Assembly: GCF_001278075.1 (NCBI RefSeq)
Contig: NZ_CP011340.1
Span: 7,375,501-7,439,500 of the forward strand
DNA length: 64,000 bases
Direction: 5' to 3'
Origin: Streptomyces pristinaespiralis
GTDB taxonomy: Bacteria > Actinomycetota > Actinomycetes > Streptomycetales > Streptomycetaceae
Shown piece after piece: positions 25,192 to 37,085 of this stretch; within the stretch, counting starts at the first letter, position 1, and each line of letters starts with the position of its first letter. The notes beneath the pieces are model-generated. The model searched no databases. It was given only the letters and a program-made list of their open reading frames with translations, and was not told the DNA's origin. Made by a program: the position numbers and the translations under genes.

Positions 25192-26108
25192 CACTCGACA
25201 CCGCTCCGCCCCCCACCCGCACCACGGCGGTGGCCCCGGTACGGAGCCGGCCGCGGCGCGGCCCCGGCCGGTTCGGGGTGCACGCCTTCCTGATGGCCGT
25301 GTCGCTGGCCTTCCTCGCCCCGCTGATCCTCGCTGTGTACGCCTCGTTGAGGCCGTACGAGGAGACCTCCGAGCACGGCTACTTCTCCTGGCCGGACAAC
25401 CTGTCCCTGGACTACTACCAACAGGCCTTCACCGACTCGGGGATGACGAAGTACTTCGTCAACACCCTGATCATCGCCGTCCCCGGGGTGCTGCTCGCGC
25501 TCTTCTTCGCCTCGTTCGTCGCCTTCGCCGTCGCCCGGCTGCGGTTGCGCGGATCGATCGTGCTGCTCATGCTGTTCACCGCGGGCAACCTGCTGCCGCA
25601 GCAGGTCATCGTCACCCCGCTGTACGTGCTGTTCAACCGCATCCCGCTGCCGTACTGGATGTCCGACTCGATGACGATGTTCGACTCGTACTGGGCCGTC
25701 GTGCTGGTGCAGACCGGCTTCCAGATCGGGTTCTGCGTCTTCGTGCTCGCCAACTTCATGCGCACCCTGCCGCAGGAGATCCTCGAGGCGGCGATCGTGG
25801 ACGGCGCGGGGGTGTGGACCCAGTACTGGCGCGTCACGCTGCCGCTGTGCCGGCCCGCGCTGGCGGCGCTCGGCACACTCCAGTTCACCTGGATGTACAA
25901 CGACTTCCTGTGGGCGCTGGTGTTCATCTCCGACGGCGACAAGCTGCCCATCACCTCGGCGCTGAACAACCTGCGCGGCCAGTTCTTCACGGATTACAAC
26001 CTGCTGGCGGCGGGGTCGGTGATCGTGGCGCTGCCGACGCTCGTCGTCTTCCTGCTGCTCCAGCGCCACTTCATCGCCGGGCTGACGCTGGGCTCCACCA
26101 AGGGCTAG
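25188..26108 (+). CDS. ABC sugar permease (MalG-like)
   Basis: A 306-residue partner permease with six membrane segments. Its EAA loop is EAAIVDGAGVWTQYWRVTLP. It starts at ATGA over the stop of the first permease. The gene appears intact and ends LTLGSTKG. Its TAG stop is part of the CTAG at which the downstream mobile element begins, so the insertion has separated this operon from whatever followed it, often a glycoside hydrolase gene in such loci. Confidence 0.92.
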   Translation: MTLDTAPPPTRTTAVAPVRSRPRRGPGRFGVHAFLMAVSLAFLAPLILAVYASLRPYEETSEHGYFSWPDNLSLDYYQQAFTDSGMTKYFVNTLIIAVPGVLLALFFASFVAFAVARLRLRGSIVLLMLFTAGNLLPQQVIVTPLYVLFNRIPLPYWMSDSMTMFDSYWAVVLVQTGFQIGFCVFVLANFMRTLPQEILEAAIVDGAGVWTQYWRVTLPLCRPALAALGTLQFTWMYNDFLWALVFISDGDKLPITSALNNLRGQFFTDYNLLAAGSVIVALPTLVVFLLLQRHFIAGLTLGSTKG

Positions 26109-26121
26109 TAGTGCTTCGTTA
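26109..26121 (+). repeat. left terminal inverted repeat
   Basis: TAGTGCTTCGTTA matches the right end at 28070-28082 in 12 of 13 bases on the opposite strand. Confidence 0.75.
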
Positions 26122-26160
26122 CGTCGGGTGATCTTGCGTGGTGTTGGGCATCTTCTTGGC

Positions 26161-26400
26161 ATGAGGCTGGGGGAAGTGGAACGACTCCAGGGTGAGTTAT
26201 CGGAGTTCGTTGCCGATGTGTTCGCCTCGGTGCCGCGGCGGGATCAGCGGCGGTGGGGCGAGTGTTATCTGCGGGGCCTGATGCTGGATGGCCGGCGCAA
26301 GTCGGTCCAGCCGATGGCCGAGCGTCTGCCGGACGGGAACATGCAGGCCCTGCAGCAGTTCGTGAATCAGTCGCCGTGGGATCCGCTGCCGGTCAGACAG
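26161..26400 (+). pseudogene. IS701 family transposase, N-terminal fragment
   Basis: About 80 residues match the start of actinobacterial IS701 transposases: FVADVFASVPRRDQRRWGEC, GLMLDGRRKSVQPMAERLPD and NMQALQQFVNQSPWDPLPVR. Homology stops near 26397, where the sequence changes to unrelated DNA. Full-length family members are about 400 residues, so the catalytic DDE core is missing. The fragment contains a TTA leucine codon (26197-26199), rare in this window. An upstream in-frame start at 26128 is possible. Confidence 0.85.
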
Positions 26401-26465
26401 CGGGTCCCACGTTCTTACCGGCACCCCTACATGTCCGTTCGCCGTAGCTATACGAGAACAGTGCC

Positions 26466-26543
26466 GTGAACGCGGTCAACATCGTCACCAGCAAGTACTT
26501 CCGCGGGGCCGTCGGTATCCCGCAGCGCGAGACCGGTCTCAGG
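26466..26543 (+). pseudogene. nrdJ: nrdJ fragment (B12-dependent ribonucleotide reductase)
   Basis: A 26-residue stretch reads NAVNIVTSKYFRG and AVGIPQRETGL. From memory this matches almost exactly a segment about 70-80 residues into Streptomyces NrdJ, where VNAVNIVTSKYFRG and a GTPQRETGL follow a conserved Trp-Ser. Homology ends abruptly on both sides. It is a captured gene scrap, not a functional reading frame. It lies between the broken transposase and the RTX gene. Confidence 0.7.
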
Positions 26544-26581
26544 CTGCAGCGGGATGCTCTCCCAGGTCCTCGCCGCCGGGG

Positions 26582-27682
26582 TCACACCTCGCAGTTGGTC
26601 TCGAAGTCGACGCCCGCTTCTCCGTCGCAGTCGTCTGTACCGGAGCTGCCGTTCAAGAAGTCGTTCGCGGGTCCGCCCCTGAGCGTGTCGTTACCGGATC
26701 CCGCATCGATCCGGTCGGACCCGCCCACAGTGGTGACCGATCCGTCCGGGCCCACGTTGTCACCGAAGAGGACGTCGTCCCCGCCGCGCCCGGAGATCTG
26801 ATCGTGCCCGGCGGTCGCTCCGCTCGGGTCTCCCAAGCCGCTGTCTCCGACGATCTCGAACTCGCCCGCACTGCCCCCGGTGATCCGGTCGTTGCCGGAG
26901 CCGATCGCGGTGCCCTGGGAAGCAGCGTGATCGCCGATCGCGATCGTGCCGCCGTCCGCACCCAGGTCCACGATGTCGTCACCGCCGGCCCCGCTCGCGT
27001 TCCCCACAATAGAGACGCTGTCGCCCGTCGCGTCGCCGAGTTCGCCGGGACCTTCCAGGAGCACGTCGTCGCCGGCCCCGGAGGCGTTGAAGAAGGCCAC
27101 CGAGTCGCCGATGAGGCCGTCGTTGCCCTCGCCGCCTTCGAGGCGGTCGCTCGCGCCGCCGGAGGCGCTCTCCCCGTTGGTGTCGCCGACCAGGCTGTCG
27201 TCGCCCGGGCCGCCGTACAGGGAGTCGCGCGCTGCCCCACTGGCAGTGCCCTGGAAACCCGCGGAGTTGTCGCCCACCAGGCTGTCGTCGCCCGCGCCGC
27301 CGAGCAGACGGTCCGTTCCGGTGGCGCCCGTAACGCCGGTCGCGTCGAAGCTGTCCCCGACAACTCCGTCGTTGCCGTCACCGCCGTCGATCGAGTCATT
27401 GCCGGGGCCGCCCCTCAGGCGGTCGTCGCCACCCAGACCGCAGATCAGGTCGTCGCCGCCCAGGCCGTTGATGACGTCGGGCCCCGCGGTGCCGACGATC
27501 ACGTCCCGGCCCGATGTCCCGGTCGTGCCCGTGGTCGTCGCGGGGACGCCGAAGCACGTGGGCACCTGCGCGCCGGCTTCCGTGGCCCCGAGACCGACGA
27601 TGGCTGCCGCTGCGAAGACATTGGCGCAACAGCTCAGGAGGACCCGGCAGCCGGGTCTCCTTCGGCGGATGGCGTTCATCAT
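26582..27682 (-). CDS. secreted RTX-like calcium-binding repeat protein
   Basis: A 366-residue protein with a signal peptide (RRRRPGCRVLLSCC, then an Ala-rich core ending TEAGAQ). Nearly all the rest is built of glycine/aspartate nonapeptides of the GGxGxDxxx type, for example GGLGGDDLICG, GGPGNDSIDG, GGAGDDSLVGD, GGEGNDGLIGD and GRGGDDVLFGD. These form calcium-binding beta rolls. There is no catalytic domain, so it may be a surface or matrix protein. The ATG at 27682 has GGAG 5 nt upstream. It lies wholly inside the mobile element as cargo, with GATCAC boxes upstream of its start. Confidence 0.82.
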   Translation of the reverse strand: MMNAIRRRRPGCRVLLSCCANVFAAAAIVGLGATEAGAQVPTCFGVPATTTGTTGTSGRDVIVGTAGPDVINGLGGDDLICGLGGDDRLRGGPGNDSIDGGDGNDGVVGDSFDATGVTGATGTDRLLGGAGDDSLVGDNSAGFQGTASGAARDSLYGGPGDDSLVGDTNGESASGGASDRLEGGEGNDGLIGDSVAFFNASGAGDDVLLEGPGELGDATGDSVSIVGNASGAGGDDIVDLGADGGTIAIGDHAASQGTAIGSGNDRITGGSAGEFEIVGDSGLGDPSGATAGHDQISGRGGDDVLFGDNVGPDGSVTTVGGSDRIDAGSGNDTLRGGPANDFLNGSSGTDDCDGEAGVDFETNCEV

Positions 27683-27703
27683 GGCTGCTCCATGCAAGTG
27701 GTT

Positions 27704-27808
27704 GTGATCAGTGACGCGTGATCACTTCCAGCGCAGGCGCAGAAGTCGCGCTATTCCTGCCGTTTTCATCAGTTCAGCACTGTTCACAGATCACTCCCAG
27801 TTGATCAC
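27704..27808. promoter_or_regulatory. cluster of GATCAC boxes upstream of the RTX gene
   Basis: GTGATCA (27704-27710) and TGATCAC (27719-27725) form a 7-bp dyad with an 8-bp spacer. Further AGATCAC (27788-27794) and TGATCAC (27802-27808) boxes follow. All lie within 130 bp upstream of the RTX start, as expected for a multi-site operator. The regulator is unknown. Confidence 0.5.
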
Positions 27809-27828
27809 GACCGCTGGTTGCGCGTCCC

Positions 27829-27936
27829 CACGTCAGGGTGAGGCTTGGTCAGGATGCGGTCGCGTGGCTCTGCTTGCTCGGGAGTGAACGAGTCGTGCAG
27901 CCCGCGGGAGGTGATCGTGCGCTTGAACCGCGGGTA
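27829..27936 (-). pseudogene. possible Tn3-type transposase scrap
   Basis: A minus-strand stretch reads YPRFKRTITSRGLHDSFTP followed by EQAEPRDRI. This resembles the start of DUF4158-containing Tn3-family transposases, where an RELHxFYTPTxEE pattern is common. The match is short and from memory. If right, it is a second unrelated mobile-DNA remnant within the element. Confidence 0.3.
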
Positions 27937-28069
27937 GCCGGAGGAGCCCGCTTCCTGTCCTGGGCGCCCTCGTTGGGCTGGTCGAGTGATCGAGGTCAAA
28001 GACCGCCGCAAGCTCCCCAGCCCTCATACAGCCGGCGAAATACCACACACCCAACGCGACAAGACCAGC

Positions 28070-28082
28070 TAACAAAGCACTA
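28070..28082 (-). repeat. right terminal inverted repeat
   Basis: Read on the minus strand this is TAGTGCTTTGTTA, matching the left end at 26109-26121 with one mismatch. CTAG follows at 28083-28086. Confidence 0.75.
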
Positions 28083-28206
28083 CTAGGGCTCTTTGCCGTG
28101 TCCCGCGGATCGGCGAGGGCTCACCGCACCCGGCCCGCGGGAGCGGAAGCGGGCAACGTTTGGCGCGGCGTGAGCCCGCCGCGGCCGGGAACGCACCGGG
28201 TAGCGG

Positions 28207-28701
28207 TCAGCGGCGCAGCGCGGCGAGCTCCCGGTTCATCTCGGCGAGGAAGCGGACCACCACCCGCAGCTCCTGCGTGGTGAAACGGCCACGCGCGGCG
28301 TCGGTGCCCCGGGCGAGGGGCTGGAAGTAGTCCCGGGCCACCTGCTTGGCCCCCTCCGCGTAGTGCAGGTGCACCACCCGGCGGTCGTCGGCCGCTCTGA
28401 CCCGCCGGATGTGACCGGCCTTCTCCAGCCGGTCGAGGCACGCGGTCATGGCGCCCGACGTCAGGTTGAGCTGCTTGCGCAGCCTGCCGGGCGTCATCGG
28501 CCCCGCCTCGTCGGCGTGATCACCGTCCAGGATCGCGATCAGCGCCTGCACGTCGGTCAGGTGCAGACCCTGCGACTGGGCGAACTCCTGGGCGATGCGG
28601 TTGAACTCGCCGTTCATACGCCGCAACAGCACCGCGAAGTCCTGCAACCCCACCGGGTCCTCGGAGGGAAGTACGGGGGAGGGAGTGTCGGCGCTGCGCA
28701 T
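28207..28701 (-). CDS. MarR family transcriptional regulator
   Basis: A 164-residue winged-helix regulator. The DNA-binding part reads MTPGRLRKQLNLTSGAMTAC and LDRLEKAGHIRRVRAADDRR, with flanking dimerisation helices. The ATG at 28701 is preceded at once by GGGGGA; a TATACT hexamer (28713-28708) lies so close that the transcript may be leaderless. An earlier in-frame ATG near 28728 is less likely. It is divergent from an MMPL exporter gene, and a long dyad between them suggests it represses both, as is usual for MarR-exporter pairs. Confidence 0.87.
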   Translation of the reverse strand: MRSADTPSPVLPSEDPVGLQDFAVLLRRMNGEFNRIAQEFAQSQGLHLTDVQALIAILDGDHADEAGPMTPGRLRKQLNLTSGAMTACLDRLEKAGHIRRVRAADDRRVVHLHYAEGAKQVARDYFQPLARGTDAARGRFTTQELRVVVRFLAEMNRELAALRR

Positions 28702-28712
28702 TCCCCCAGTAT

Positions 28713-28752
28713 ATAGTTTCTCGATCATTGACATACTCGATGACTGAACTAT
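28713..28752. promoter_or_regulatory. MarR/MMPL divergent control region
   Basis: ATAGTT (28713-28718) and AACTAT (28747-28752) form the outer arms of a 40-bp symmetric region. Inside are two direct CTCGAT repeats (28720-28725, 28736-28741) and TTGACA (28728-28733), a likely -35 element for the exporter gene. Binding here would block both promoters. Confidence 0.5.
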
Positions 28753-28775
28753 CCGTCGTGACCAGGGACTGTTGA

Positions 28776-30893
28776 ATGAGAAGCACACCGCGCTGGGCCC
28801 GTTGGCTGGTACCAGTGACGCTCCTGATCGTCTGGCTGGGCATCGGCGGGACGCTCGGCCCGTACGCGGGCAAGCTCGGCGAAGTGGCGACCAACGACCA
28901 GGCCGCGTTCCTGCCGCGCAGCGCGGAGTCGACCAAGGCGCTGGAGGCCCGTGAGGCGTTCGACCACGCGGAGACGGTGCCCGCCATCGTCGTATGGACG
29001 ACGGACGGGAACCGGGTCGGCGAAGCCCAGCAGGCGACCGCGACCCGGGTGGTCGGTGAGCTCGCCGGCCGGCCCGGAATCGTCGGCCGGCCCTCGCCCG
29101 CGCTGGTGTCGAAGGACGGCGCCGCGATGCAGGCCGTCATCCAGCTGGAACCGGATCTCGGTGACGAACTGCCTGCCGTCCTCGACGAGGTACGCGCGGC
29201 GGCGGGCGACGTACCGGGCGCGACGGCCCGGATCGCGGGCCCGGCGGCGAGCCAGGCGGACCTGTCCGACGCGTTCGCCGGCATCGACGGGCTGCTGCTG
29301 GGCGTGGCGCTCGGCGCCGTACTGCTCATCCTGCTGCTGGTCTACCGGAGTGTGCTGCTGCCGTTCCTGATCATCCTGGGGGCCGTCTTCGCGCTGGGCC
29401 TCGCGTGCGCGGTGGTCTACGCGCTGGCGGACCGGGACATCGTCCGGGTGGACGGGCAGGTGCAGGGCATCCTCTCCATCCTCGTGATCGGCGCCGCCAC
29501 CGACTACGCACTGCTGCTCGCCGCCCGCTTCCGGGAGGAACTCGCGGTGCGCGAGGACCGTACGGCCGCCGCACTGGCCGCCGTACGCCGTTCGTTCGGT
29601 GCCATCACCGCCAGCGCGGCGACCGTGGCGCTGGGACTGCTGGCTCTGCTGGCGAGCGACCTCACCAACAACCGCGCCCTCGGGCCGGTCGGCGCCATCG
29701 GCATCGTCTGCGCCGTGCTCTCGACCCTGACGTTCCTCCCGGCCGTACTGGTTCTGCTCGGCCGTGCCGCCTACTGGCCGGCCAGGCTGAAGCCGTCGGA
29801 CGGCACCGCGGAGGGGCACGGCGTATGGCGCCGCGTCGCCGCACTGGTCGACCGCCGGCCGCGGCGGGTGTGGGTCGCCACCGCCCTCGTGCTCACGGCT
29901 TTCGCCGCCTTCTCCCCGGCGCTGTCCTCGAAGGGTGTGCCGCTCGACGAGATCTTCGTCAACGACGCCCCGTCCGTCGCCGCACAGGAGAGCCTCGGCA
30001 AGCACTTCCCGGGCGGCTCGGGCAACCCCGCGGTGATCATCGCCGACGCGGAACGGGCCGCTCAGGTGACGGCCGCGGCGGAGGGTACCGAGGGCGTGGC
30101 CTCGGCCGGTGCCGTCTCCGCCTCTGGCAGGCCGGGCGCCGGTGAACCCCTCGTCGTGGACGGGCGGGTGCGCATCGACGCCACCCTCGAGGCGGCCGCC
30201 GACAGTGACGCCGCGAAGGACGCGATCGAGCGGCTGCGCGAGAACGTGCACGCGGTGAGCGGCGCCGACGCGCTCGTCGGCGGCTACACGGCGCAGCAGT
30301 ACGACACCCAGCAGACCGCCGCCAGGGACCGGACCGTCATCGTCCCCGTCGTGCTCGGCATCATTCTGCTGATCCTGGTACTGCTGCTGCGCTCACTGCT
30401 GGTGCCCGTGCTGCTGGTGGCGACGGTCGCGCTCAACTTCCTGGCGACGCTCGGGGTGGCGACCCTCGTCTTCGATCTCCTCGGCTTCAGCGGCACCGAC
30501 GCGTCCGTCCCGCTGTACGGGTTCGTGTTCCTGGTTGCTCTCGGCGTCGACTACAACATCTTCCTGATGTCCCGGGTTCGGGAGGAGGCGCTCACCCACG
30601 GCACCCGGCAAGGCGTGCTGCGCGGACTGGCGACCACCGGCGGGGTCATCACTTCGGCGGGAGTGGTCCTCGCGGCGACCTTCGCGGCGCTCATGGTGAT
30701 CCCGCTGGCCTTCCTGGTGCAGATCGCGTTCATCGTGGCGTTCGGCGTCCTGCTGGACACCCTCGTGGTCCGCTCCCTGCTGGTGCCGGCGCTCGTGGTC
30801 GACATCGGCCCCAGGGCGTGGTGGCCGAGCTCCCTCGCCAAGGTCGCCACGGTGGATTCCCGGGCGGGCGGCGAGGCGGGACGCACGGCGTAG
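28776..30893 (+). CDS. MMPL family transporter
   Basis: A 705-residue RND-superfamily membrane exporter. There are twelve predicted membrane spans in two halves, each with a large extracytoplasmic loop. The Asp-Tyr pairs of the MMPL proton relay are in IGAATDYALLLAARFREE and LGVDYNIFLMSRVREE. Substrates of this family include lipids, siderophores and drugs; none is implied by the neighbours. The ATG at 28776 has AGGGA 8 nt upstream. Regulation by the divergent MarR gene is likely. Confidence 0.9.
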   Translation: MRSTPRWARWLVPVTLLIVWLGIGGTLGPYAGKLGEVATNDQAAFLPRSAESTKALEAREAFDHAETVPAIVVWTTDGNRVGEAQQATATRVVGELAGRPGIVGRPSPALVSKDGAAMQAVIQLEPDLGDELPAVLDEVRAAAGDVPGATARIAGPAASQADLSDAFAGIDGLLLGVALGAVLLILLLVYRSVLLPFLIILGAVFALGLACAVVYALADRDIVRVDGQVQGILSILVIGAATDYALLLAARFREELAVREDRTAAALAAVRRSFGAITASAATVALGLLALLASDLTNNRALGPVGAIGIVCAVLSTLTFLPAVLVLLGRAAYWPARLKPSDGTAEGHGVWRRVAALVDRRPRRVWVATALVLTAFAAFSPALSSKGVPLDEIFVNDAPSVAAQESLGKHFPGGSGNPAVIIADAERAAQVTAAAEGTEGVASAGAVSASGRPGAGEPLVVDGRVRIDATLEAAADSDAAKDAIERLRENVHAVSGADALVGGYTAQQYDTQQTAARDRTVIVPVVLGIILLILVLLLRSLLVPVLLVATVALNFLATLGVATLVFDLLGFSGTDASVPLYGFVFLVALGVDYNIFLMSRVREEALTHGTRQGVLRGLATTGGVITSAGVVLAATFAALMVIPLAFLVQIAFIVAFGVLLDTLVVRSLLVPALVVDIGPRAWWPSSLAKVATVDSRAGGEAGRTA

Positions 30894-30971
30894 CACGTAT
30901 GTGCGCGTGCCGCCCCGGCGGCACGCGCCTACCGTGAGCAGCAGGACATCTCGGCCGAAAGGGGACCTTCC

Positions 30972-31874
30972 ATGGCAGCCAAGGTGAGCCCGCTGCGCGG
31001 CCGGACCGCCGTCGTGACCGGAGCGGCGCGCGGCCTGGGAGAAGCCGTGGCACGGAGGCTGGCCGACCGTGGCGCCGACGTCGCCCTCCTCGGCCGGGAG
31101 GAGAACGCGCTGGCCCGGGTCCGGGACTCACTCACCGGTCCGGGCCGGGCGTTGTGCTGGGAGGTCGACGTCACGGACGACGCGGGGATGGCGCGCGTCG
31201 CCGCCGAGGTCCGCGAGCGACTCGGTGCCCCCTCCGTGGTCGTGGCCAACGCGGGTGTGGCGGAAGGCGGGCCCTTCGCCGAGTCGGACCCCGCGACATG
31301 GCGCCGGGTGATCGAGGTGAACCTGATCGGCAGCGCCGTCACCGCCCGGTCCTTCCTCCCTGCGCTGTTCGACACCCGGGGCTTCTTCCTGCAGGTCGCG
31401 TCGCTCGCGTCCATCGGCGCGGCTCCCATGATGAGCGCGTACTGCGCGTCCAAGGCCGGGGTGGAGTCGTTCGCCCACTCACTGCGCGCCGAACTCGCCC
31501 ACCGGCAGGTGGGCGTGGGCATCGCCTACATCAACTGGACCGACACCGACATGATCCGGGACGCCGACGCCCACGCGGTCCTGCGCGAGCTGCGCGGCCA
31601 CATGCCGCCGCCCGCGCGCAGGGTGTACCCCGCCGCGCAGGTGGCCGGCCGGCTGGTCGCGGCGGTCGAACGGCGCCGTCCGACCGTGTACATGCCGTCG
31701 TGGCTACGGGCGACGCAACTCGTGCGGGCCGCCATGCCCCCCGTGGTCACGATGCTCTCCCGTCGCGAGCTGCCGCGTCTCGCGGCAGCGGAACCCTTCG
31801 AGGGCACGGGCCTGCTCGGCGCCGGCGGCCGCGCCGACGTGGCGCCCGCCCGCGGATCCTCCAGCGGGGCATGA
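30972..31874 (+). CDS. SDR family oxidoreductase
   Basis: A 300-residue classical short-chain dehydrogenase. The cofactor motif is VVTGAARGLGEAVA (TGxxxGxG), NAG is in VVVANAGVAEGG, the catalytic Ser in QVASLASIG, and the Tyr/Lys pair in YCASKAG. The C-terminal 80 residues are longer than usual, with a basic hydrophobic patch (PSWLRATQLVRAAMPPVV) that might touch membrane, as in acyl-lipid-acting SDRs. The ATG follows AAAGGGGACC. It lies 78 bp after the MMPL gene and may share its transcript. Confidence 0.87.
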   Translation: MAAKVSPLRGRTAVVTGAARGLGEAVARRLADRGADVALLGREENALARVRDSLTGPGRALCWEVDVTDDAGMARVAAEVRERLGAPSVVVANAGVAEGGPFAESDPATWRRVIEVNLIGSAVTARSFLPALFDTRGFFLQVASLASIGAAPMMSAYCASKAGVESFAHSLRAELAHRQVGVGIAYINWTDTDMIRDADAHAVLRELRGHMPPPARRVYPAAQVAGRLVAAVERRRPTVYMPSWLRATQLVRAAMPPVVTMLSRRELPRLAAAEPFEGTGLLGAGGRADVAPARGSSSGA

Positions 31875-32083
31875 AGCCCGCATCGGCATGACGCATCCGC
31901 CGGCCCGCCCCCGGGCGAAGTCGCTGTGCGGACGTGGCGCCCGGACAGCGGGTGCCGCGGTGCGCCGGCACGCGACCGCCGGGCCTCGCGGCCGAAACCG
32001 CTCCGGCAGAGCATCCGGGCAGCCAGGACACGCCGTGTGCCCGAAAGCAGCCCTCACAGCAGCGATGAATCAGGAGTGGAGCC

Positions 32084-33457
32084 ATGACCGTCGCGGTCGT
32101 CCTGTTCACCTCCGACCTGCGCCTGCACGACCACCCGCCCCTGCGGGCCGCGCTGCGCGCGGCGGACGAGGTGGTGCCGCTCTTCGTCCTCGATCCCGGC
32201 ATCGGCGCCGCGGGGTTCGAGGCCCCCAACCGGTGCGCGTTCCTGGCCGACTGCCTGGCCGACCTCGACGCCTCACTGCGTGAGCGCGGCGGTCGGCTCG
32301 TGGTCCGTTCGGGACCGGTGGCCCAGCAGGTGGGCGCGATCGCCGCCGAGTGCGGAGCCGGCGAGGTGCACATGGCGGCCGGCGTCACCCGCTACGCCCG
32401 CAGACGGGAGGAACTGCTGCGCACGGTGCTGCGGGAACGCGGCGCCACGCTGCGGACGCACGATGCCGTGATCACCGTCGTCGCCCCCGGTGCGGTGACG
32501 CCGGCCGGCTCCGACCACTACTCCGTCTTCACCCCCTACTTCCGGCGCTGGTCGCAGCAGCGGCTGCGGGACCCCTGCCGGGCGCCCCGCACCGTGCCCG
32601 TCCCCGTGACGATGCACGGGGAGCCGCTGCCGTCCCGCGACGCGGTGCCGAGGATCTCGCCCGGTCTGCCGGCCGGCGGGGAAAGCGCGGGGCGTAAGCG
32701 GTTCCACGACTGGGAGGCGTCCGGCCTGGACGCCTACGACGTCCAGCACGACAGCTTGGCCGGCGACATGACCTCCCGCCTGTCGCCCTACCTCCACTTC
32801 GGCGCTCTGTCGCCTCTCGAGCTGGTGCGCGAGGCGTCCGCCCACGGCGGAACCGGCGCGGAGGCGTTCGTGCGCCAACTGTGCTGGCGCGACTTCCACC
32901 ACCAGGTGATGGCGGCCCGGCCCGCGTCCTCCGTCGAGGACTACCGGCCCCGCCACGACCGGTGGCGCACGCAGGACGACGCGGCGGAGGACATCACCGC
33001 CTGGAAGGAGGGCGCCACCGGCTTTCCCGTCGTCGACGCGGCGATGCGGCAGCTGCGCCATGAAGGCTGGATGCACAACCGGGCCCGCCTGCTCGTGGCG
33101 AGCTTCCTCACCAAGACGCTCTACGTCGACTGGCGCATCGGCGCCCGCTACTTCCTCGACCGGCTGGTGGACGGCGACATCGTCAACAATCAGCTCAACT
33201 GGCAGTGGGTCGCCGGAACCGGCACCGACACCCGCCCGCACCGCGTCCTCAACCCGGTGGTCCAGGGCAAGCGCTTCGATCCGCGAGGAGAGTACGTGCG
33301 CCGCTGGGTGCCCGAACTGCGGGAGATCCCGGACGGAGCCGTCCACGAGCCGTGGCGGCTGCCGGCGGACCGACGCGCCCGCCTGGACTATCCCGACCCG
33401 CTGATCGACCTCGCGGAGGGGCTCGCACGCTTCAAGCACGCCCGCGGCCGGATCTGA
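32084..33457 (+). CDS. phr: deoxyribodipyrimidine photolyase
   Basis: A 457-residue FAD enzyme that repairs UV-induced cyclobutane pyrimidine dimers with blue light. The N-terminal alpha/beta antenna domain begins VVLFTSDLRLHDHPPL. The FAD domain shows SRLSPYLHFGALSP, LCWRDFHHQ, GFPVVDAAMRQL, GWMHNRARLLVASFLTK, and NQLNWQWVAGTGTDTRPHR then NPVVQGKRFDP. These match class I CPD photolyases, including DNA-contact and electron-transfer Trp positions. It is convergent with a LitR-like MerR gene, a pairing that suggests light-induced expression. Confidence 0.93.
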   Translation: MTVAVVLFTSDLRLHDHPPLRAALRAADEVVPLFVLDPGIGAAGFEAPNRCAFLADCLADLDASLRERGGRLVVRSGPVAQQVGAIAAECGAGEVHMAAGVTRYARRREELLRTVLRERGATLRTHDAVITVVAPGAVTPAGSDHYSVFTPYFRRWSQQRLRDPCRAPRTVPVPVTMHGEPLPSRDAVPRISPGLPAGGESAGRKRFHDWEASGLDAYDVQHDSLAGDMTSRLSPYLHFGALSPLELVREASAHGGTGAEAFVRQLCWRDFHHQVMAARPASSVEDYRPRHDRWRTQDDAAEDITAWKEGATGFPVVDAAMRQLRHEGWMHNRARLLVASFLTKTLYVDWRIGARYFLDRLVDGDIVNNQLNWQWVAGTGTDTRPHRVLNPVVQGKRFDPRGEYVRRWVPELREIPDGAVHEPWRLPADRRARLDYPDPLIDLAEGLARFKHARGRI

Positions 33458-33523
33458 GCGAGCACCGGCAGACCGGCCACCGAGGCCGGACGCCGCCCCC
33501 AGCGAAACCGAGGCGATGACACC

Positions 33524-34504
33524 TCATCGCCGCACGACCGACTCCACAGCGGCCAACGCTTCGACCAGCCCCGTGGGGCGGAGCAGGCCGGGCAGCGTCC
33601 GACCGGCCCAGCCCGGCCCGAGCGTCAGCACGACCGGCTGCCTGCGGGCACCGCGTACACCCCACTCCATGGCGGCCACATGCTGCGCCAACGGCCGGCT
33701 CGCGGTGGTACGGGACTGGGCCCACAGGCCGACGGCCGCAGGTCCGGTCCGCCGCACCGCCTCGACGAGCGCCTCGACGGGCAGCGCCGCGCCGAACATC
33801 CGCACCGGAAGGCCGCGCTCGGCGAGGGCGGCGGCCAGCACCTCGAGCGGCAGCGTGTGGCTCTCGCCGGGCACGCAGGCGAGCACGACCGTGGCACCGG
33901 GCCGCTCGGCGGCGACGGGAGGGGAGCCGCGCCGCAGGGCGCCTGCCACGTGCCAGGACAGGAAGTGCTCGACCTCCACGTACTTCTCGCCGGAGGTCTC
34001 CCACTTGCGGCCCACGGCCTGCAGCGTGGGCATGATGACCTCGTTCCACGCGGTCACCAGACCGTGAGCGGTGATCACCGAGGCGAGCAGCTCGTCCAGG
34101 GCCGCCGCGTCGAGCCGAAGGGCCGCGCGGGCAAGCCCCTTGCATTCCTGGCGGACGTCGCCCAACTGGAGACCGGTGCGGGCACGGCTGCGCACAGGGC
34201 CGGACCGCGATACGCCGGCGGCCTCTGCGGAGGGCTGCCGCGTATCGAGCGGTGCGCCCTCACGTGCGAGCCGCGCGGCCTCGGCGGGCGGTACCCCCGT
34301 CGTGGTCAGGGCGCACATCCGCTCCAGCCGGGCGATGTCCGCGGCGGTCCAGCGGCGGTGCTTCCCGCCGGTGTGCGCGTCGGGCCCCAGGCCGTAGCGG
34401 CGGTCCCAGGAGCGCACCGTCGTGGGCGCCACTCCCAGCCGCCTCGCCACCTCGCCCGTGGTCAGGCCCCCGCTCTCTCCGGTGTCCTCCCGCGCGCTGG
34501 TCAT
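33524..34504 (-). CDS. MerR regulator with B12-binding-like domain (LitR/CarH-like)
   Basis: A 326-residue regulator. The MerR helix-turn-helix is LTTGEVARRLGVAPTTVRSW with a GKHRRW wing. The rest resembles the cobalamin-binding light sensor CarH/LitR: a helical cap with Trp168 and an EH pair (Glu179-His180) in KWETSGEKYVEVEH, then a Rossmann-like domain with GESHTLPLEV. His216 there aligns with the axial B12 ligand of CarH (ERHELG), although the following Gly is Pro here. In this family, dark AdoCbl-bound tetramers repress and light releases them. It is divergent from an ECF sigma gene. Confidence 0.8.
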   Translation of the reverse strand: MTSAREDTGESGGLTTGEVARRLGVAPTTVRSWDRRYGLGPDAHTGGKHRRWTAADIARLERMCALTTTGVPPAEAARLAREGAPLDTRQPSAEAAGVSRSGPVRSRARTGLQLGDVRQECKGLARAALRLDAAALDELLASVITAHGLVTAWNEVIMPTLQAVGRKWETSGEKYVEVEHFLSWHVAGALRRGSPPVAAERPGATVVLACVPGESHTLPLEVLAAALAERGLPVRMFGAALPVEALVEAVRRTGPAAVGLWAQSRTTASRPLAQHVAAMEWGVRGARRQPVVLTLGPGWAGRTLPGLLRPTGLVEALAAVESVVRR

Positions 34505-34517
34505 GACCTCAGCTTAC

Positions 34518-34558
34518 GACGCACAAACGATGCATGTTGCTTGCGTCGATTGTGCGTC
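34518..34558. promoter_or_regulatory. nested dyad between MerR and ECF sigma genes
   Basis: GACGCACAA (34518-34526) and TTGTGCGTC (34550-34558) are perfect 9-bp arms. A second pair, CGATGCA and TGCGTCG, lies inside with one mismatch, around TGTTGC. The site is 14 bp upstream of the MerR start and 84 bp upstream of the sigma start. It is a strong candidate for the LitR-like binding site. Confidence 0.6.
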
Positions 34559-34641
34559 CAAGACTGAAGGACGACCGCCTCGGCACACGACCGCCGGACC
34601 CCTCCGGCTCCGGCACGTCGTCCGGCAGAAGGAACAGGACC

Positions 34642-35256
34642 ATGAGCACGATCACGCGACCTCGCGACCACCTGCGACCGCCGGCCGAGGAGAGGCAGCA
34701 GGAGGCAGAGCTGACCCGTGGCCTCTTCGCCGCCGACGAGCGCGTGTTCGCCACGATCTACCGGCAATGGAGCCCGCTGGTGCGGACCATGGCCACCCGC
34801 ACCCTCGGCGACGCGCGCGAGGCGGAGGACGTCACCCAGCTGGTCTTCCTGGCCGCCTGGCGGGGGAGGAGCGGATTCCGGCCCGACAAGGGCCCGCTCG
34901 GCGCCTGGCTGGTCGGCATAACCCGCCGCAAGATCGTCGACGCGCTGGCGGCCAGGACCCGGCGGCTCAGGCTGATCGACGCGGCGGCCGACGCGTCGAC
35001 CGCGACCGCACTGCGGCGAGGTGACGCCGGGCCGGACTCCGTCCTGGACCGTGTGCTGCTCGCCGACGAGATCTCCCGCCTCCCCCTGCCGCAGCGCCAG
35101 GTGCTGCGCATGGCGTTCTACGAGGACCTGACCCAGCGCCAGATCTCCGAGCGCACCGGCCTGCCCCTCGGAACGGTGAAGAGCCACGCCCGCAGGGGCC
35201 TGCACCGGCTCCGCCACCGGATCGAGCAGAACCGCCCGTCCGACACGGACGAGTAG
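34642..35256 (+). CDS. ECF RNA polymerase sigma factor (LitS-like position)
   Basis: A 204-residue group 4 sigma factor. Region 2 reads FATIYRQWSPLVRTMATRTL, then DAREAEDVTQLVFLAAWRG; region 4 reads LPLPQRQVLRMAFYEDLTQR followed by GLPLGTVKSHARRGLHRLR. The ATG at 34642 has AAGGA upstream. No anti-sigma gene follows; the next gene encodes a DUF4397 protein. In S. coelicolor the LitR-LitS pair drives light-induced genes, and the arrangement here is analogous. Confidence 0.87.
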   Translation: MSTITRPRDHLRPPAEERQQEAELTRGLFAADERVFATIYRQWSPLVRTMATRTLGDAREAEDVTQLVFLAAWRGRSGFRPDKGPLGAWLVGITRRKIVDALAARTRRLRLIDAAADASTATALRRGDAGPDSVLDRVLLADEISRLPLPQRQVLRMAFYEDLTQRQISERTGLPLGTVKSHARRGLHRLRHRIEQNRPSDTDE

Positions 35257-35357
35257 GTCCCGGCCCGAACCGGTCCGCATCCGCCGGGGGCGCCACACCG
35301 GAAACGACAACGAGACTTCGCAACACGGCGGAGCCCTCTTCCGAAGGACTGATCCTC

Positions 35358-36176
35358 ATGACCTCTCGGACCCCCCTCACCCTCGTGGCCTCAGCCGGCG
35401 TCTGCGTGTTCGCACTCGCCGCCGCCGCACCCGCCATGGCCTCCTCCGCCCAGGACGAGAAGGCCATGGTGTCGGTGTTCCACGGCGTACCCGGACTTGA
35501 CGTCGACGTCTACGCCAACGGTGATGAACTGCTCGGCGACTTCAAGCCCGGCACCCTCACCGAGCCGCAGTCGCTCGCCGCCGGCACCTACGACATCCAG
35601 GTCTTCGCAGCCGGCGAAGGACCCGGCGGCACCCCGGCCGTCGAGAAGTCGATCGACGTGCCGGCGGGAGCGAACGCGACCATCGCCGCGCATCTGTCGG
35701 CCGACGGCAAGCCGCAGCTGACCGCCTTCGTCAACGACATGTCCGCGCTCGAAGCGGGCAAGACCCGCCTGACCGTCCGCCACGTCGCCGCGGCTCCCGC
35801 CGTGGACGTCCGGGCAGGCGGACAACCTCTGTTCACCGGACTGGAGAACCCGAAGCAGGCCACCACCGAGGTCGACGCGGGCGCCGTCTCCGCCGATGTC
35901 GTGCTGGCCGGCACGGACACCGTGGCCGTCGGCCCGGCCGACCTGGACCTCAAGGAGGGAACCGGCAACGTCGTCTACGCCTGGGGCAGCGCCCAGGACA
36001 AGAACCTGGCACTCAAGGTGCAGAGCTTCAGCGGCATGGAATCCGCTTCCGGGGCCGACGGCGCGGCCGTCCCCCGGAACTCGTCCCAGCCCTGGCTCGC
36101 CTCGGCCGCCGCGGCCGGGGTGGTCGCGGTCCCCGGTCTCCTCGTCGCCCGCCGCGCCGCCGGACGGCGTGGCTGA
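35358..36176 (+). CDS. DUF4397 surface protein
   Basis: A 272-residue exported protein. A signal peptide (TPLTLVASAGVCVFALAAAA, then PAMA) precedes two DUF4397 beta-sandwich repeats, seen as VSVFHGVPGLDVDVYANGDE and LTVRHVAAAPAVDVRAGGQP. A hydrophobic segment near the end and the basic tail RRAAGRRG make it a C-terminally membrane-anchored protein. No LPxTG-type sortase motif is visible. Its place directly after the ECF gene suggests that sigma factor directs it. Confidence 0.85.
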   Translation: MTSRTPLTLVASAGVCVFALAAAAPAMASSAQDEKAMVSVFHGVPGLDVDVYANGDELLGDFKPGTLTEPQSLAAGTYDIQVFAAGEGPGGTPAVEKSIDVPAGANATIAAHLSADGKPQLTAFVNDMSALEAGKTRLTVRHVAAAPAVDVRAGGQPLFTGLENPKQATTEVDAGAVSADVVLAGTDTVAVGPADLDLKEGTGNVVYAWGSAQDKNLALKVQSFSGMESASGADGAAVPRNSSQPWLASAAAAGVVAVPGLLVARRAAGRRG

Positions 36177-36221
36177 CACGGACTCTCCCCGCGCATCCCT
36201 GCGGGGCACCGCGGGGACAGA

Positions 36222-36259
36222 GGCGCCGTCGCCCGTGCCATCGCGCGGGCGACGGCGCC
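36222..36259 (+). terminator. terminator hairpin after the DUF4397 gene
   Basis: GGCGCCGTCGCCCG (36222-36235) and its exact complement (36246-36259) form a 14-bp stem with a 10-nt loop, 45 bp after the stop codon. Confidence 0.7.
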
Positions 36260-36376
36260 CGACGTCCTACGGCCGCCGCGGTGTTGCGCGGACGCGCCCG
36301 CGGCTTGCCAGGCGCAGCGGAGCACCGGCCGGCTCGGGGTCCTGAGCAGGCTCGGGGTCCTGAGCAGGGGAGCCGC

Positions 36377-36811
36377 TCAGCACGCGGTGTGGTCGGGGTG
36401 ATGCTTGGTGCGGCGTTCTTCCTTCATCTCCGCCTCGTAAAGGTGGTCCCGGCCGTCGGCGAGCTCGCTGCGGATCTCCTCTTCGAGCTGCTGGAAGGGC
36501 CGGTAGTAGGTGGCGTTGTATGCCTCGATGATCTGGAACGTCCAATGATCGGGAATGACGTTCCGGCCGAGGACCTCCCTCTCCACACGGTCGGCCTCCC
36601 GGCCGTGACCGGCTTCGCGCAGGAGGCGCACCGCGTCGTCCAGAACGAGGTCCGCGCTGCCGGTGAGCTGGTGAAAGCTGTAGAGGGCGCCGCGGGCCCG
36701 CTCGGTCGTCTCCAGAGCCTTCGACAGCGCCCCCAGCGCTTCGACCGTCGCCCTGGTCACGCCGGAGGGCCGCCGGTGCCGCGAGTCCGGCCGCTCGTGA
36801 TCAGAACTCAT
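36377..36811 (-). CDS. hypothetical protein, helical
   Basis: A 144-residue soluble protein that I cannot assign with certainty. It is mostly helical and charged: LGALSKALETTERARGALYS, LLREAGHGREADRVEREVLG, NATYYRPFQQLEEEIRSELA, with a His-rich end (KHHPDHTAC). The ATG at 36811 follows GGGAAGGGAG. A longer frame to 36901 adds residues without a ribosome site. No membrane segment or signal is present. Confidence 0.7.
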   Translation of the reverse strand: MSSDHERPDSRHRRPSGVTRATVEALGALSKALETTERARGALYSFHQLTGSADLVLDDAVRLLREAGHGREADRVEREVLGRNVIPDHWTFQIIEAYNATYYRPFQQLEEEIRSELADGRDHLYEAEMKEERRTKHHPDHTAC

Positions 36812-37085
36812 GCATCTCCCTTCCCGCTCTTCTCCCGCTCTTCGCGCCGGTGACTTCGGGTCCGCGGTGCGGTCGGTCGCGAGGGCGCGCGTGAGTGCCA
36901 CTCTTCCCTCCGCGTGGGTTCAGGCCGAACGGCCCGCGCGGCCGTTCACCCGCTCGTACCAAGGAGCGGTCGGCCGCCGGCCCGGCAGGCGCGTGATCCA
37001 CCGCGCTGCGACCGGGCGTCCGGGTGTCCGGGCGTCCAAGGGGCCATGGATCCGTTCCGTCACCGGTCCGGTCATCGGTCCACCG

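Follow-up and report, generated by a model that had tools for sequence, protein, structure and literature searches.

The question raised by this locus is whether a 1982-bp segment of the Streptomyces pristinaespiralis chromosome, which is bounded by inverted ends of the IS701 family of insertion sequences (ISs) and carries an intact RTX-repeat gene, is a unit of transposition. The segment begins at the stop codon of an ABC permease gene and lies within a 64,000-bp stretch (positions 7,375,501-7,439,500 of a single-contig genome of 8.53 Mb); this whole stretch is referred to as the window, and all coordinates are given relative to it. The initial annotation had derived the segment from one IS701 and regarded it as able to move. 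We found instead that its arms are the 5′ ends of two different IS701 types, inverted to each other, and not the left and right ends of one element. We lean slightly towards the view that the segment is a mosaic insertion-deletion scar, bounded by the left ends of the two IS701 types and placed at the edge of acquired DNA.

The reported match of the ends in 12 of 13 bases, with CTAG flanks, was reproduced at positions 26105-26121 (CTAG followed by TAGTGCTTCGTTA) and 28070-28086 (TAACAAAGCACTA followed by CTAG); with CTAG included, the ends are complementary at 16 of 17 bases. When the whole genome was scanned with the 13-mer (Y at the variable base, at most 1 mismatch), one site was detected on each strand, and both of them are the ends of the segment; the reversed pattern, which served as a control, gave 0 and 1 matches on the two strands. 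The single base that differs between the ends is the C/T difference separating two IS701 types, referred to here as C-type and T-type (names coined in this analysis), and the mismatch is therefore not random decay. The terminal inverted repeats of the family are present, as both ends are identical to those of intact-length C-type and T-type copies. The CTAG tetranucleotide occurs eight times in the window, compared with 27 occurrences expected from trinucleotides.

The left arm is the 5′ end of a C-type IS701. It is 99.3% identical to an intact-length copy in genome G030 (L014), and its identity is 96.7% to G140 (L015) and 92% to plasmid pSV2 (L011). The breakpoint is well defined: 21 of the 30 left-arm matches stop exactly at position 26406 and the other nine between 26366 and 26411. 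The open reading frame (ORF) at 26128-26469 matched the Pfam DDE_5 profile (82 bits, profile positions 2-69 of 272) and, below the cut-off, the NCBIfam profile transpos_IS701. Only the first ~72 of the 363 positions of the latter are represented (1-72), so the segment has no complete DDE transposase. This agrees with the earlier reading of a transposase reduced to about 80 residues, since the first ~82 residues are left and share 91% identity with the pSV2 transposase over those 82. Among the 32 loci examined (L011-L042), 18 had both ends with no more than 3 mismatches, at a distance of 1392-1418 bp; CTAG flanked 16 of the 18 full-length copies on both sides.

The right arm shares 78 of 85 bases, the start codon region included, with the transposase-start end of another IS701, carried by the S. 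vietnamensis plasmid pSVL1 (L063). The nine T-type 5′ ends share between 66 and 79 bases with this arm; in contrast, for the seven T-type copies that were fetched with both ends, the 3′ end aligns to it over only 23 bases, and the C-type 3′ end diverges from it just inside the repeat. The transposases of the two types are 55% identical.

One IS701 that lost its middle and captured the RTX gene would account for the IS701-like ends, the truncated transposase and the RTX gene inside; we regard this derivation as extremely improbable. A single IS701 with an internal deletion was ruled out by the right arm, which has a transposase start and matches T-type 5′ ends over up to 85 bp.

In order to judge whether the segment moves, we took into account its copies, its flanks and the available transposases. 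Relatives were represented by a sample of 392 genomes, the own genome included, which covers part of the genus, so that a closer relative may lie outside it; in the searches with the whole segment, the MarR/MMPL region, the permease and the permease tail, just one or two candidates were scored for each genome. The segment gave a single full match in its own genome, and no second full copy was found there or in the 391 other genomes, where the best match was to the left arm alone (E 6.9e-152). The own genome encodes four proteins with DDE_5 matches, including the remnant in the segment. Among the other three, one was detected by IS701 transposases, with 29% (C-type) and 26% (T-type) identity, and no transposase of either type was detected in this genome. 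Thus, nothing found in the genome is likely to mobilise the segment at present, and its movement would need a transposase from outside. Nor does the genome contain the full IS701 copy with the same ends whose presence the initial annotation had suggested checking, since, within one mismatch, the 13-mer occurs only at the ends of the segment; the same ends do occur at other CTAG sites, around intact-length copies in other genomes.

The flanks are uninformative in this respect. CTAG is present on both outer sides of the segment, as would be expected of a 4-bp target duplication, and this is also the usual state of full-length copies. Because IS701 copies are nearly always located at CTAG (16 of 18), its presence outside both ends is as compatible with two separate insertions as with a single one.

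The frequency of mixed end pairs was estimated with the pattern CTAGTAGTGCTTYGTTA, which was found in 66 of the 392 genomes, the own one included. The count was drawn from 150 listed pattern sites in 64 genomes, which are not all of the matches, and was made for facing ends less than 6 kb apart. It yielded 36 pairs; 35 were of a single type, and the sole mixed pair was the segment. The pairs spanned 1380-1442 bp in 33 of the 36 cases and 163, 1188 and 1982 bp (the segment) in the others. The remaining 78 of the 150 listed sites were unpaired, a number inflated by contig ends and mutated partners. Genome G349 contains eight lone IS701 end pieces (L279-L286), five of the 5′ type (74-105 bp) and three of the 3′ type (~77-83 bp), each with an outer CTAG and breaking at similar positions. 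No partner end was detected within ~7 kb of any of them at E<=1e-4, and two (L285, L286) have ~75% internal IS701 remnants nearby. IS701 end fragments that lack a partner are therefore not rare.

These counts bear on the possibility that the segment is a hybrid cassette with two left ends, which moved as a unit because both outer repeats were recognised by one IS701 transposase. The RTX segment would then have inserted, in the manner of a mobile insertion cassette, into a permease-stop CTAG that already adjoined the MarR block. The facing ends, the near-identical 13-bp repeats and the CTAG on both outer sides all speak for such a cassette, as does the occurrence of a CTAG stop at the same position in two relatives, while the 163-bp unit of G349 shows that CTAG-flanked pairs of same-side ends do occur. 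In contrast, no second full copy was found in the own and 391 same-genus genomes, neither a clean empty site nor, in this genome, a matching transposase was found, and mixed-type pairs are otherwise unseen (1 of 36 at the listed sites). We hold this alternative to be possible, if rather doubtful. That a cassette with two left ends is functional, i.e. that the ends of types with 55%-identical transposases cooperate, so that any nearby facing ends could carry a gene, seems to us somewhat unlikely. Should this end pair indeed cooperate, IS701 types could cross-mobilise each other's debris, which would provide a simple route of single-gene transfer in Streptomyces.

The site was compared with its counterparts in relatives. 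In G173, the nearest relative found (permease 95% identical, 90-94% DNA identity over the region), the homologues of window positions 26104 and 37083 are only 13 bp apart. It thus lacks a block of 10,978 bp whose left edge is the segment, and the right-hand ~9 kb of this block gave only 14 scattered matches (69-83%) in G173. The permease is present (E<=1e-180) in 58 of the 392 genomes, the own one included. When the permease tail together with the start of the element was used against 294 genomes, none of the 41 permease matches ran on into the element, and three other genomes matched the IS arm; the arrangement is accordingly not fixed at the locus, as had been anticipated for a mobile element, since the segment is absent from this place in all 41 genomes in which the permease was matched. 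In all 20 relatives for which the locus was fetched, the permease is followed by the homologue of the window from 37 kb onwards, either directly or after other DNA, and the DNA of window positions 26109-37082 was not found beside the permease in any of them at the thresholds used. Several relatives have ~1-6.5 kb of other DNA at this point, which indicates that the permease junction is variable; it looks like an insertion hot spot.

A CTAG at the permease stop, without an insert, was observed in G070 and G204 (L196, L212; 2 of 48 rows, in which five genomes are represented twice), whereas the permease of G173 ends with GGG TGA. These natural CTAG stops make the CTAG stop plausible as the target of the left IS. 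A clean empty site with a single CTAG after the permease stop, another of the checks proposed at the outset, was not obtained: no listed match spans the joined flanks in 100 genomes, and G173 also lacks the adjoining 9 kb.

The absence of the whole block from G173 brings in a further explanation, in which a larger composite bounded by IS701 imported the entire region 26105-37082 and later lost its right IS end, the segment being its left end. The fact that the block missing from G173 starts exactly at the left IS701 end points in this direction. Against it, there is no CTAG or IS701 end near position 37082 (the nearest CTAG sites are at 28083 and 44569), and the first 2.8 kb of the block, containing the MarR and MMPL genes, travels or persists without the permease: it has matches at E<=1e-100 in 190 of the 392 genomes, the own one included, and lay near the permease in 0 of the 9 loci fetched. 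A larger composite is therefore unlikely.

The anatomy of the segment, the identity and orientation of the two IS types and the absence of the segment from the relatives examined are firmly established, and from these we infer an order of events in which the segment did not move as a whole. A C-type IS701 would have used the CTAG of the permease stop codon as its target, and a T-type IS701, oriented the other way, would have inserted at a CTAG next to the adjoining acquired DNA (the MarR/MMPL block). Later insertions and deletions linked to the Tn3 family may then have removed the body and the 3′ end of both ISs, so that the two outer ends now enclose scraps of Tn3 and nrdJ together with the intact RTX gene.

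Several points weigh against this mosaic history. Facing ends located 2 kb apart with CTAG outside both are exactly what the insertion of a unit looks like, and by our own reckoning independent double insertions followed by random loss would give such a layout in only about one case in four. Since the interval in G173 is only 13 bp, the 9-kb block could have landed first and the cassette later. Moreover, the proposed order of events was seen in no genome.

The segment resembles known kinds of IS derivatives and adds a case of mixed type. Elements of the IS701 family are described as generating 4-bp direct repeats and as being 1400-1550 bp long (PMC2266710). The segment shares the ends, the CTAG target and the transposase N-terminus with the ISs of this family (C-type, ~1390-1420 bp, e.g. 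on pSV2; T-type, ~1380-1390 bp, e.g. on pSVL1); unlike them, it lacks an intact transposase, is bounded by 5′ ends of two types and has a mixed content of 1982 bp. Mobile insertion cassettes, solo inverted repeats and partial copies left as scars are covered in PMC3129680, which also describes structures whose IS ends enclose DNA lacking a complete transposase gene and some of which can be activated by a related intact IS. With mobile insertion cassettes the segment has in common that IS ends flank a gene other than a transposase (the intact RTX gene); it differs in that it occurs in a single copy without a cognate IS in the genome, has the ends of two ISs and is filled with debris. Two inverted IS pieces around a gene are also a feature of composite transposon remnants, whereas here the arms come from different ISs (55% transposase identity), both are broken, and no functional IS copy is present. 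Literature searches, from which subscription papers were mostly out of reach, revealed no published account of this segment. The case illustrates how the ends of two distinct ISs can combine into what convincingly resembles a mobile cassette; for ISs which nearly always insert at CTAG, a CTAG on either side is no evidence of movement as a unit.

Table 1. Coordinates of the segment, its parts and the lineage-specific block (window positions)
Feature	Position	Strand	Description	Basis
Lineage-specific block	26105..37082		10,978 bp; left edge formed by the IS701-ended segment; absent from G173, the nearest relative found	
Left CTAG	26105..26108		Last base of the final sense codon plus stop (GGC TAG) of the ABC permease gene	sequence
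C-type IS701 5′ end	26105..26406	+	302 bp including CTAG; inverted repeat and first ~82 transposase codons; breakpoint ~26406	
43-bp piece	26427..26469		Also beside recombinase/Tn3-family genes on some Streptomyces plasmids	
nrdJ fragment	26466..26547	+	82 bp of B12-dependent ribonucleotide reductase gene	
RTX-repeat gene, intact	26582..27697	-	371 aa from first TTG (candidate start); hydrophobic N-terminus resembling a signal peptide (by eye)	
RTX upstream stretch	27698..27732	-	Common to two RTX homologues	
Tn3-family transposase debris	27870..28001		Two pieces	
T-type IS701 5′ end	28002..28086	-	85 bp including CTAG; inverted; inverted repeat and transposase start	
Right CTAG	28083..28086			sequence

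The interior of the segment (Table 1) is composed of pieces from at least three further sources: the Tn3 family, nrdJ and an RTX locus. The RTX gene, which had been described as intact, is indeed of full length compared with its best homologue (query residues 2-371 aligned, 61% identity). Its product gave a match above the curated cut-off to PF00353 (E=5e-27, 93.8 bits, four stretches) and is predicted to be secreted and to bind calcium. The closest homologues among the matches listed are the similar RTX calcium-binding proteins of Streptomyces sp. TRM49041, Ru71 and S. roseolilacinus, which are 60-61% identical along almost their whole length, and an RTX gene of pSVL1 is 67% identical at the DNA level over part of its length. 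A search of 30 genomes with the protein gave matches at E<=1e-15 in the own genome, G173, G330 and G317. In contrast to the segment, no IS701 end (at most 2 mismatches) was present in the fetched stretches of seven RTX homologue loci and of the remnant locus in G173. This remnant, at 2.54 Mb of G173 (L298/L300) and thus at another locus, comprises only 230 bp of the C-terminal part of an RTX gene.

Homology to the RTX region reaches position 27732 in two loci (L092 and L094) and ends at 27577 or earlier in three others (L093, L181, L182). The upstream stretch common to the two homologues suggests that the RTX gene was probably captured together with part of its own upstream region.

The 43-bp piece is 98% identical (42/43) to a site just after a recombinase gene on an S. 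clavifer plasmid (L290) and 80% identical to NBC_01591 DNA located upstream of a Tn3 DUF4158 gene (L294); the match on pSSFR1 (L291, 41/44) and the end of a hypothetical gene overlap. The preceding 20 bases (26407-26426) gave only a match of 21 bases in the own genome (E 0.003), which looks like chance, and the 137 bp at 27733-27869 had no significant plasmid match (best E 0.2). The Tn3-family debris consists of positions 27870-27936, which are 79-84% identical to sites that carry a DUF4158 or Tn3 transposase annotation in several plasmids (on the minus strand for L292), and positions 27929-28001, 83% identical to DNA of NBC_00873 (L065, opposite sense) that reaches into the beginning of a Tn3 transposase gene. 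No Pfam domain was found in this debris.

The nrdJ fragment matched two profiles below their cut-offs (NCBIfam NF005122, E=9e-6, 23.6 bits; Pfam PF08471, E=0.11). It is 95% identical (78/82) to the nrdJ copy that the own genome has at 2.47 Mb, and the same 82 bp occur, also at 95%, on an S. zaomyceticus plasmid (L293, 3001-3082), inside a gene annotated as encoding a helicase C-terminal domain protein. Being equally close to both, the 82 bp cannot tell the origin of the fragment. An adjacency of RTX and nrdJ in relatives was ruled out as its source, since the two were not adjacent in the fetched stretches of the same seven RTX loci and the G173 remnant locus.

Apart from the MarR-type and MMPL transporter genes, the block 26105-37082 contains SDR, photolyase and MerR/sigma-type genes; these names are based on translations, and only the MarR-type protein was profile-scanned. 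Some other IS701 derivatives were also encountered. The 163-bp unit of G349 (L255/L287) is CTAG-flanked and 98% palindromic, and it consists of two inverted IS701 3′ ends, as in a miniature element or similar derivative. The 1188-bp pair of T-type ends in G299 (L254) has CTAG outside both ends. In the case of G109 (L263, from position 140), a T-type end runs straight into what appears by eye to be an inner part of an IS701 transposase, so that this copy seems to be a hybrid or to have an internal deletion.

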